Shown: in pieces, positions 3,432 through 5,416 of the stretch
How the letters are laid out: every line of letters starts with the position of its first letter
Numbering within the stretch: position 1 is the first letter of the stretch
NCBI GenBank assembly: GCA_017433765.1
Contig: JAFRGO010000006.1
Span: 1-64,000 of the forward strand
Reading direction: 5' to 3'
Source: Candidatus Saccharimonadota bacterium
GTDB taxonomy: Bacteria; Patescibacteriota; Saccharimonadia; Saccharimonadales; Saccharimonadaceae
DNA: 64,000 nt
Notes under the pieces: generated by a model
The model's input: only the letters and a program-made list of their open reading frames with translations
Databases searched by the model: none
What the model was told of the DNA's origin: nothing
Made by a program: the position numbers and the translations under genes

Positions 3432-4214
3432 TTATACGTTGAAAATTGGGTTGCTAAAGGCAAAAACGATGACCGCGATAAGGATGAGACTAAAAGCGGT
3501 GGGGGGCAGGACTTCTTTGTAGCGGACTTCGCCGTCGTGACGGAGGACGCTAGTGGCGGCTTTGGCGAAGGCGAAGGCCGAGAGGGTGAGAATGATGGAA
3601 AATTGGGGGACGATGATGCCGGTCGAGCCGAAGGAATAAATAATCGACCAGGTGGAGCAGAGCCAGGCGAGCTCGGCGTAGAGGAGACCGCAGGCGAAGG
3701 TGACGAGGGTGAAGGAACCTTCGGAAGTTTGAGCGAAGAGGTGGCGGCTGGCTCCGTAGCCGATAAGAAACTCTATCAAGACGAAGACGATGGAGTCAAC
3801 AGAAGTGGTGGCGATGAGCGCAGCGGTCGAGCCGAGGAAGGTGGCAAAGAGGGATTGGATGAGAGGATAGGGATTCTTTGTCTTCGGTTTGATGAAAATC
3901 AGCCAGATGGTGTAGAGGGCGGCGAGGAGGATGTGGATGGGGAGGATTTCGGTGCCGGAAAGGTAGGCGAGGACGACGAAGGAAGCGCCGACGATGAGGT
4001 CAACGAGGCTGGATTTTAAGTTGAGGAGCCAGTAGCGAGGGCGGACGGCGAAGATGCGCCATTTGGAGATGAGGACGAGGATGATGCCGAGAATCCAGCT
4101 ACCAGAGATGAGGGTGACGGAAATCGAGCCGACGCCGAGGAGGATGTTCATCAGGACGTGGAGGAAGGAGCTGAGAGTGTTGCGGGATTTGCGTATGATT
4201 GAATAATCTGCCAT
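3432..4214 (-). CDS. Polytopic membrane protein of unknown function
   Basis: The 260-residue protein has about seven or eight hydrophobic segments separated by short loops and no catalytic motif I recognise. A basic N-terminus (SIIRKSRN) precedes the first helix. It is the first gene of a unit with htrA, which suggests an envelope role, but this is inference only. The ATG is set by an extended -10 box (TG-C-TATAAT) 8 bases upstream, so the message would have a leader of one or two bases at most. Divergent from lepB. Confidence 0.75.
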   Translation of the reverse strand: MADYSIIRKSRNTLSSFLHVLMNILLGVGSISVTLISGSWILGIILVLISKWRIFAVRPRYWLLNLKSSLVDLIVGASFVVLAYLSGTEILPIHILLAALYTIWLIFIKPKTKNPYPLIQSLFATFLGSTAALIATTSVDSIVFVLIEFLIGYGASRHLFAQTSEGSFTLVTFACGLLYAELAWLCSTWSIIYSFGSTGIIVPQFSIILTLSAFAFAKAATSVLRHDGEVRYKEVLPPTAFSLILIAVIVFAFSNPIFNV

Positions 4215-4222
4215 ATGAATAT

Positions 4223-4231
4223 ATTATAGCA
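4223..4231 (-). promoter_or_regulatory. Extended -10 promoter of the 3432-4214/htrA unit
   Basis: On the minus strand TG-C-TATAAT ends 8 bases before the ATG. It lies back to back with the lepB promoter. Confidence 0.65.
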
Positions 4232-4283
4232 CGGAAAATAAAATAAGCTTAAAATGGGAAACGTGGCGGTTTGGGCGAAGATG

Positions 4284-4292
4284 TGGTAAAAT
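4284..4292 (+). promoter_or_regulatory. Extended -10 promoter of lepB, leaderless
   Basis: TG-G-TAAAAT ends exactly 6 bases before the lepB ATG, the same spacing as at prfA. Confidence 0.7.
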
Positions 4293-4298
4293 GGGAGA

Positions 4299-4946
4299 AT
4301 GGATACGACAAAACAGCCGAGCTTTTTCCAGAGACACCCGATAATTAAAGATATATTTTCTTTGGTGGGATTTGTTGTGGTGGTGGTGTTCGGGACGTTC
4401 GTGCTAAATACCTTTGTTTTTCGGTCGTATAATGTCGTGGGGGTGAGCATGGAGAATACTTTGCATAATGACGACAGGGTAATTGTGAATCGACTGGCGG
4501 TGACGATGGCGCATTTTTCGGGAAACGAATATGTGCCGGAGCGGGGGCAGATTATCGTGTTCGCGAACGGAAGCGCGACGGGGGCGTTGACTTGTGCGGC
4601 GCCGAATACGGTGACGGACCAGTATATTATCAAGAGAGTGATTGCGTTCCCTGGCGAGAGAGTGACGGTGAAGGACGGGGTGATGACGATTTATAATGAC
4701 GAGCATCCGGAGGGATTTATTTATGATAAGGAATGGAGGAAGTCGGACGAGGAGGGGCCGAAGGAATATACTTCGGGGGAGGTAGATACGACGGTGCCGG
4801 AGGGAGAGTTGTTTGTGTCGGGGGATAATCGCGAGGGGTCACATTCGTATGATTCGAGGAATGGCTTGGGCACGGTGCCGTATTGTCGGATCGTGGGGCC
4901 GGTGAATTTGCGGATATTTCCGCTAGATAGAATAAAGTTGTTCTAG
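4299..4946 (+). CDS. lepB: Signal peptidase I
   Basis: Membrane serine protease that removes signal peptides from Sec-exported proteins. The 215-residue protein has one transmembrane helix (about 18-40), then the catalytic serine in VGVSMENTL (S50) and the general-base lysine in YIIKRVIAFPG (K112). The late SGDNREGSHSYDSRNG segment matches conserved box E of the family (SGDNR...DSR). The exported proteins in this window (CHAP hydrolase, cohesin-domain protein) are plausible substrates. The start is fixed by the -10 box 6 bases upstream. A hairpin terminator follows. Confidence 0.96.
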   Translation: MDTTKQPSFFQRHPIIKDIFSLVGFVVVVVFGTFVLNTFVFRSYNVVGVSMENTLHNDDRVIVNRLAVTMAHFSGNEYVPERGQIIVFANGSATGALTCAAPNTVTDQYIIKRVIAFPGERVTVKDGVMTIYNDEHPEGFIYDKEWRKSDEEGPKEYTSGEVDTTVPEGELFVSGDNREGSHSYDSRNGLGTVPYCRIVGPVNLRIFPLDRIKLF

Positions 4947-4950
4947 ATAT

Positions 4951-4976
4951 AAAAATGCCCTCAAGAGGGCATTTTT
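4951..4976. terminator. Bidirectional terminator between lepB and the 86-aa gene
   Basis: A 12-bp perfect stem, AAAAATGCCCTC / GAGGGCATTTTT, with a two-base loop. A and T runs on both flanks let it serve both convergent genes. Confidence 0.92.
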
Positions 4977-5007
4977 AGACATTTTGTTTGCTGATAGCGG
5001 CTAGGGT

Positions 5008-5268
5008 TTAGCGCATCAGTAACAGGTGCCAGGCCAAGTTGGTCGAGTTGAACTCGAGACGAAACTTCCGCCCACTAGCAATCACGTCGAAGACGTGGAG
5101 AGTGGTGGCACCGACGAACTTGACGCGGCTACGGATGAGCTCGTCAACTTCTACTTCGACACCGTCCGCGCGCTTGAAAGAAAGCGGTTGGCAAGGCGTC
5201 ATTTCGAAGCCGAAGAGGGCCATAACTTCGACTTGCTCGTCTTGGTTGGATTTGGTTTTTTTGAACAT
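5008..5268 (-). CDS. Small protein of unknown function (86 aa) with structured leader
   Basis: I do not recognise this protein. It starts with a charged stretch (KKTKSNQDEQ), then alternates beta-like segments such as ADGVEVEVDELIRSRVKFVG and FDVIASGRKFRLEF; no signal peptide or membrane helix is evident. A clear Shine-Dalgarno (TAGGAGTT) precedes the ATG. Coding is supported by the ribosome-binding site, a promoter about 140 bases upstream and a terminator after the stop. The unusually long leader, against the near-absent leaders of most genes here, suggests control at translation. A regulatory, RNA-binding or ribosome-associated role is possible but unproven. Confidence 0.7.
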   Translation of the reverse strand: MFKKTKSNQDEQVEVMALFGFEMTPCQPLSFKRADGVEVEVDELIRSRVKFVGATTLHVFDVIASGRKFRLEFNSTNLAWHLLLMR

Positions 5269-5402
5269 AAGTAACTCCTAAGATAAATGATAGAAGTCAT
5301 TTATGCGAGCCTAGTTTATTGGCTCTTGGCTATGGAGTTAAATGACAAAATTCCACAGCTTAGTCGGTACGTCTTAGCCAGTGACCGAAGTATGACTAGA
5401 CA
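5269..5402 (-). ncRNA. Candidate cis-regulatory 5' leader of the 86-aa gene
   Basis: About 134 bases separate the predicted start of transcription from the ATG. On the RNA, segment A (5346-5334, GTCATTTAACTCC) can pair by its first 8 bases with segment B (5303-5296, TAAATGAC) or by its last 7 with the ribosome-binding site (5278-5272, GGAGTTA). Segment B also forms an 8-bp hairpin with segment C (5290-5283, TCATTTAT). These pairings exclude one another, so two states, with the ribosome site open or closed, are possible. An upstream stem (CGGT/ACCG flanked by CTT/AAG) adds further structure. The ligand or signal is unknown. Confidence 0.5.
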
Positions 5403-5407
5403 TAACT

Positions 5408-5416
5408 ATTTTAGCA
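5408..5416 (-). promoter_or_regulatory. Extended -10 promoter of the 86-aa gene
   Basis: Minus strand TG-C-TAAAAT lies about 140 bases before the ATG. It is the nearest good -10 box, which implies a leader of roughly 134 bases. The -35 region is weak. Confidence 0.55.

Follow-up and report, generated by a model that had tools for sequence, protein, structure and literature searches.

A conserved leader RNA that probably controls translation of a translesion-synthesis accessory gene in Saccharibacteria

Introduction

Saccharibacteria are tiny parasitic bacteria, and we know of almost no regulatory RNAs in the Candidate Phyla Radiation. In the stretch of DNA analysed here (the window, 64,000 nucleotides of a Candidatus Saccharimonadota contig), a minus-strand leader, which runs on the RNA from 5402 to 5269, lies ahead of an open reading frame of 86 amino acids (5268-5008). 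An earlier note, made from the sequence alone, described this leader as riboswitch-like: a segment A would pair either with a segment B, leaving the ribosome site open, or with the ribosome site itself, when B is sequestered by a segment C. This raises the questions of whether the leader is real, which of its pairings are conserved, and what it may control.

Extent and folding of the leader

In 88 of 91 relatives a -10-like hexamer ends 3-5 nt before the point where the aligned leader begins, and this spacing makes the length of about 134 nt, which the earlier note had proposed, credible. The predicted -10 element is far upstream of the ATG; a transcript that starts close to the ATG, which would contradict the proposal, is not what the promoter prediction points to. 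The leader folds with a minimum free energy (MFE) of -40.3 kcal/mol, compared to -26.0 kcal/mol for shuffled sequences (z -4.1, none of 200 shuffles being as good; all folding was computed at 37 °C only). The features discussed below, in the order of the RNA, are the following.

5408-5416, minus strand: -10 promoter element TGCTAAAAT, from the sequence; predicted transcript start at about 5402-5400
5371-5401, minus strand: P1, the 5' hairpin, with a UNCG-type tetraloop (UUCG, 5389-5386) and a conserved internal loop A-N-AC / GU-CMC-U
5329-5359, minus strand: P2 hairpin, based on covariation, with the pseudoknot strand GUCAUUU in its apical loop
5340-5346, minus strand: putative pseudoknot strand 1 (segment A of the earlier note), GUCAUUU, whose complementarity is kept
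5307-5325, minus strand: P3 hairpin, GAGCC/GGCUC with a variable loop, the stem being nearly invariant in 45 leaders
5296-5302, minus strand: putative pseudoknot strand 2 (segment B of the earlier note), AAAUGAC, common to the start-site hairpin
5266-5305, minus strand: predicted start-site hairpin (OFF), 5299-5291 with 5280-5272 and 5305-5301 with 5270-5266
5008-5268, minus strand: gene of the 86-aa ImuB-C/DUF6504-like protein (all-beta model), based on the family profile, the neighbours and AlphaFold2
4950-4977, minus strand: terminator-like hairpin directly 3' of the gene, the palindrome GCCCUCUUGAGGGC followed by TTTTTAT in the minus-strand reading

The helix of the start-site hairpin consists of UGACUUCUA/UAGGAGUUA and CAUAA/UUAUG (5305-5266); it covers both the Shine-Dalgarno sequence (SD, 5278-5275) and the AUG, and is part of the MFE fold. 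The terminator hairpin is listed on the plus strand in the hairpin scan. Judging from this layout, the transcript of the gene looks monocistronic.

Conservation in the genus

This small gene is preceded by the leader in 45 of 60 genomes of the same genus, which takes in Candidatus Nanosyncoccus alces and many metagenome-assembled genomes from rumen and gut. The full-length protein is encoded in the genome of the window (327 kb, 50% complete) and in 45 of 59 further genomes of the genus, give or take a fragment in one of them (G052). Two sets of sequences were used below: alignment A1, which comprises 45 leaders, and a larger set of 91 distinct leader sequences.

A covariance model of the leader (R1), the construction of which the earlier note had suggested, detects it in 46 genomes of the genus, once per genome, and all 46 true matches are located before this same gene. 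The model also finds the leader in three loci of another genus (L085-L087, E 1e-15 to 1e-16), and gives one further weak match in another family (E=0.0042). Weak R1 matches on the minus strand overlap true leaders and were discarded as mirror artefacts. As far as sequence comparison goes, the leader is real and conserved.

Conserved and conflicting pairings

In alignment A1, 92.2% of the cells that belong to P1, P2, P3 and the pseudoknot are paired, whereas shuffles reach 85.4% and sliding the partners leaves no more than 37%; cells in which both bases changed number 118, against 39.7 in shuffles. Covariation was assessed with our own R-scape-like test (G statistic with APC, 91 distinct sequences, 9591 column pairs), the null being obtained by moving inferred substitutions along a FastTree tree. 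Eight pairs covary at E<0.05, all of them in or next to P2, including one (52-82) which is an out-of-register neighbour. Pair 48-87, at the base of P2 (about 5360/5328 in the window), exchanges almost perfectly between G-U (49 leaders) and A-C (39 leaders), with E<0.01, which suggests a geometric demand at this position, G-U and A-C being isosteric wobble pairs. The E values are 0.07 for the outer (distal) pair of the start-site hairpin, 132-153, and 0.16 and 0.22 for pairs of P1, while P3 is nearly invariant and so gives no covariation signal either way. These alignments show P1 and P2 to be conserved as RNA helices. The covariation in relatives by which the earlier note wished to be judged is thus found, in P2, and as far as the sequence tells its proposal of a structured leader is not refuted, either by this result or by the position of the promoter.

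The complementarities that had been described in the window are present: A (5346-5339) pairs with B (5303-5296) over 8 bp, and A (5340-5334) with the SD region (5278-5272) over 7 bp. The pairing of B with C is indeed a perfect 8 bp helix, except that B must then be taken as 5304-5297, one base away from the segment that had been indicated. Their fates in the relatives differ. A:B is at least 7 bp long in 90 of 91 leaders, whereas B:C reaches 7 bp in only 4 of 91 and A:SD reaches 6 bp in 2 of 91; B:C and A:SD are local accidents of this genome, and we rejected them as conserved elements. A:B is identified as a predicted pseudoknot between the loop of P2 and a downstream strand. Its strands, GUCAUUU and AAAUGAC, hardly vary and show G-U changes only (7 bp in 100% of the 45 sequences of A1), so that its support comes from conserved complementarity and G-U changes rather than from compensatory changes.

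The element that the earlier account missed is the start-site hairpin, which appears in the MFE fold and is the stronger competitor: in all 91 leaders its arm GACUC:GGAG has 5 bp or more and its AUG arm 4 bp or more. The strand AAAUGACUC is complementary both to the loop of P2 and to GGAGUC...UUUAU at the ribosome site and start codon, and the two exclusive pairings, each of them conserved, overlap at the bases GAC (5298-5296). The predicted conserved conflict is therefore between the A:B pseudoknot and the pairing of the overlapping strand B' with the SD and AUG, not between A:B and B:C; the general idea of a structured, conserved leader with mutually exclusive pairings that reach the ribosome site holds, with the pseudoknot in 90 of 91 leaders and the start-site hairpin in 91 of 91.

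According to ViennaRNA, the SD is unpaired with a mean probability of 0.02 over the 91 leaders, against an average of 0.44 among 36 further genes in the window, and we predict on this basis that the default state is OFF. The value rises to 0.36 when the pseudoknot strands are held out. In silico, the pseudoknot duplex amounts to -5 kcal/mol and the local hairpin to about -10 kcal/mol; energies alone favour the local hairpin, so opening by the pseudoknot is not expected to be favoured without help.

The gene and its family

The sequence of the window protein has no match in Pfam, NCBIfam, PHROG or the PDB, nor with the DUF6504 profile (PF20114), and a scan of the contigs with this single protein as the query returned no relatives. 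AlphaFold2 predicts an all-beta structure (pLDDT 86.7), for which the PDB offers no informative fold match (best Foldseek E 0.35; VIA-align Z at most 6.7). This empty fold search agrees with the description of ImuB-C as a beta-barrel without close relatives in the PDB (PMC12926913).

The family emerges from a profile, with matches in 188 of 217 genomes within the order and in 61 of 240 phylum-wide. The DUF6504 cut-off of 24.2 bits is exceeded by two homologues of other Patescibacteria (25.9 and 26.1). In other Patescibacteria, the family gene is located directly 5' of a Y-family polymerase gene, with lexA just upstream in three of the loci that were inspected; in other families of the order, the leader and the small gene stand first in an operon with a Y-polymerase (PF00817), or with a UmuD-like S24 protein and UmuC. 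A homologue encoded on a Geobacter plasmid, which Pfam does not recognise, also matches the family profile, and its gene is flanked by lexA and a Y-polymerase reading frame; a lexA-imuB-C-polY arrangement has been published for Geobacter sulfurreducens (PMC6511836). We named the family ImuB-C/DUF6504-like because of these Y-polymerase and lexA neighbours and of the DUF6504 matches of the homologues; we infer that DUF6504 and ImuB-C are equivalent. The protein, which had been described as unknown, can thus be placed: it is likely, from its relatives' neighbours, an accessory subunit of a translesion-synthesis polymerase system. The gene-neighbour analysis of the relatives rules out an orphan protein, and the idea of a phage gene was discarded, no viral contig encoding a relative. 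In the window the gene is solitary, with no adjoining polymerase, as it is throughout its genus, and the half-complete genome to which it belongs yielded no Y-polymerase.

Two loci deserve a mention. In the plasmid of Geobacter anodireducens (L310), the Y-polymerase frame (3740-5310) is unlisted and split over two frames, immediately after lexA and the ImuB-C-like gene. In another family of Patescibacteria (L191), an SOS-box-like palindrome, GAACGTTTGTTC, lies just 5' of ImuB-C-like and Y-polymerase genes.

The leader across the order

A pattern search shows that the motif ACUNCGGUCMCUG recurs 5' of family members in many other families of the order. Forty diverse P1 hairpins align without gaps, with A11, C14, U15, G18, G19, C21, C23 and G25 invariant; the tetraloop is of the UNCG type in nearly all of them, and its closing A-U pair is replaced by G-C in 4. 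A second model, restricted to P1 (R2), matches the window at 5370-5403 (E=6.5e-6) and yields 21 matches at E<0.02 across 41 genomes; 19 of these precede an ImuB-C-like or Y-polymerase gene when match positions are set by hand against gene positions. The two exceptions are G094:C1:376985 and G083:C4:15052. The former (L065) is a well-formed P1 before an ORF of 58 amino acids (MGRIEDLLPKIEIAAGKTTQQ...) that is unrelated to the family, which speaks against strict autogeny.

Other genera of the window's family swap the apex of P1 for inserts of about 19-34 nt while they keep the AUAC/GUCCCU core; tolerance at the apex and a constant core are what is expected of a docked surface, and we propose from this pattern that P1 is a recognition site. 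A stretch just 3' of P1 is complementary to the start site (p<=0.05) in 13 of 28 order-wide leaders, about 1.4 being expected, and the helices reach up to 12 bp with a sequence that differs each time (e.g. AUCUAAACAAC/GUUGUUUAGAU and CAUAUACAAACC/GGUUUGUAUAUG). The sequences GAACGG and CCGUUC occur about 40 nt apart in 19 of the 28; a CCUGU/ACAGG pseudoknot inside this helix, suspected by eye, was abandoned, the automatic search giving nothing above shuffles. Half of the loci (45 of 90) miss a strict P1 criterion; they are partly variants (UCCGGGCC) or hairpins with multiply interrupted lower stems, and partly loci where the leader is absent.

Some loci show further arrangements. Two tandem P1 hairpins (1513 and 1476, minus strand) are found 5' of the ImuB-C-like gene of L068 (G071). 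A P1-like hairpin precedes an apparently decayed Y-polymerase gene in L177 (G203:C2:172063). In the paralogue L174 (G190:C5:342302), the strand directly after P1 is complementary to the gene's own start site (TTCATAAAA/TTTTATGAA). L070-L073, L088, L172, L280, L284, L292 and others share one more conserved element (roughly AGYCAYGTGNGGRCT ... CAGACTT) about 60 nt 5' of P1, and on account of it other families of the order seem to have a longer leader.

Since 56 of 61 genomes of the order encode LexA, transcription may be LexA-controlled as well; in the genus of the window, no shared LexA operator stood out by eye 5' of P1. On balance, we lean slightly towards the view that an order-wide class of regulatory RNA governs error-prone polymerase operons (ImuB-C-like gene and Y-polymerase, or UmuD-UmuC), which would then respond to a signal read by RNA and not only to LexA.

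Proposed mechanism and alternatives

We consider it probable that the leader belongs to a new class of leader RNA which controls the translation of a translesion-synthesis polymerase accessory gene. In the mechanism that we propose, the closed start-site hairpin would be the default OFF state, and formation of the pseudoknot with the loop of P2 would release the start site, as their shared bases suggest. A factor docking on the internal loop of P1 would shift the balance between the two pairings, and the mutagenic machinery would be made only when needed. Most likely the factor would be a protein; the ImuB-C-like gene product or a partner of it is a candidate. We favour a protein because the RNA serves one dedicated gene system, has a small core and tolerates apical inserts: for an RNA dedicated to one gene, in which about 9-12 loop bases are conserved, protein binding fits better than a metabolite pocket.

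A true riboswitch is nevertheless the most serious alternative, although we regard it as unlikely. P1, with P2 and P3 packed on it, would bind a metabolite or an ion, for example a nucleotide whose level goes up with DNA damage, and would thereby displace the balance between pseudoknot and start site. The anatomy is aptamer-like (an invariant internal loop, a pseudoknot and a shared switching strand), the tandem copies of P1 in L068 recall some riboswitches, and a covarying, structured leader whose predicted exclusive helices reach the expression platform is what a riboswitch would look like. But it is associated with one gene family only, and not with transporters or biosynthesis genes, large inserts are tolerated in the apex of P1, the conserved core is small and there is no relative in Rfam.

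Less likely still is a leader of the standby type, like that of E. coli tisB, in which the 5' structure and the pseudoknot would recruit 30S/S1 upstream of a buried start site and activity would be set by processing or coupling, and not by a ligand of its own. The predicted layout is the same, with a structure at the 5' end, a pseudoknot and a sequestered ribosome-binding site in front of a DNA-damage gene (PMC7708055), but the sequence of P1 is conserved over many families, more than a generic standby site needs, and the tisB-like elements share no sequence. An RNA thermometer, in which the SD hairpin would melt with heat, is very improbable: the SD and the AUG do lie within one moderately stable, AU-rich hairpin, but the P1 core, the covariation of P2 and the pseudoknot would be left unexplained, and most of the relatives come from warm-blooded guts, where the temperature is near constant.

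If the proposed translational control by a factor that reads P1 is correct, the leader adds a naturally regulated 5' UTR to the genetic tools for Saccharibacteria, in which inducible expression is lacking (PMC11665869). For the Candidate Phyla Radiation it would be a rare regulatory RNA and would add a new level at which mutation is controlled, and a 'hypothetical' protein family gains a likely role. This suggests that Saccharibacteria hold mutation-causing enzymes in check via RNA, besides or instead of a DNA-binding repressor.

Comparison with known systems

The earlier note had recognised no known class, and a search with 4227 families of Rfam 15 in the window and ten relatives likewise gave no match to the leader above the cut-off. 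In the literature that we searched (which included few subscription journals, and neither preprints nor the supplements of RNA screens), no leader RNA on a translesion operon was found. The main text of a large RNA screen (PMC8040213) does not mention Saccharibacteria, and the supplements of such screens may hold an earlier, unnamed prediction.

The design resembles that of translational pseudoknot riboswitches of the preQ1 type, in which the pseudoknot and the SD pairing compete for a strand, as is predicted here. Unlike in those riboswitches, the pseudoknot is here expected to open and not to close the start site, there is neither a known aptamer sequence nor an Rfam match, and the distribution is limited to a single gene. 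Autogenous leaders of ribosomal proteins are RNAs limited to the genes of their own system, with a compact hairpin, a conserved internal loop and control of translation. The present leader resembles them in its compact hairpin with a conserved internal loop and in its predicted control of translation; of its 21 P1 matches, 19 precede a gene of the system and two do not. It precedes an accessory gene of a translesion polymerase, and self-binding is only a candidate idea.

Translesion polymerases are usually described as being controlled by LexA and by proteolysis. The lexA-imuB-C-polY operons of Geobacter have the same protein family and the same gene order (lexA, small gene, Y-polymerase) as are seen in other Patescibacteria; published accounts place them under LexA control and describe no RNA leader, whereas the gene of the window is solitary (PMC6511836; PMC12926913). 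Last, the mRNA of E. coli tisB is a DNA-damage mRNA with a 5' pseudoknot, a sequestered ribosome-binding site and a standby site (PMC7708055). Both leaders combine a DNA-damage-related gene with a structured 5' end, a pseudoknot and a ribosome site that is buried, here by prediction from the sequence. They differ in that tisB is a toxin gene controlled by processing and by the antisense RNA IstR-1, with no likeness in sequence or to the P1 core, and in that the pseudoknot and the start-site hairpin of the present leader have bases in common.
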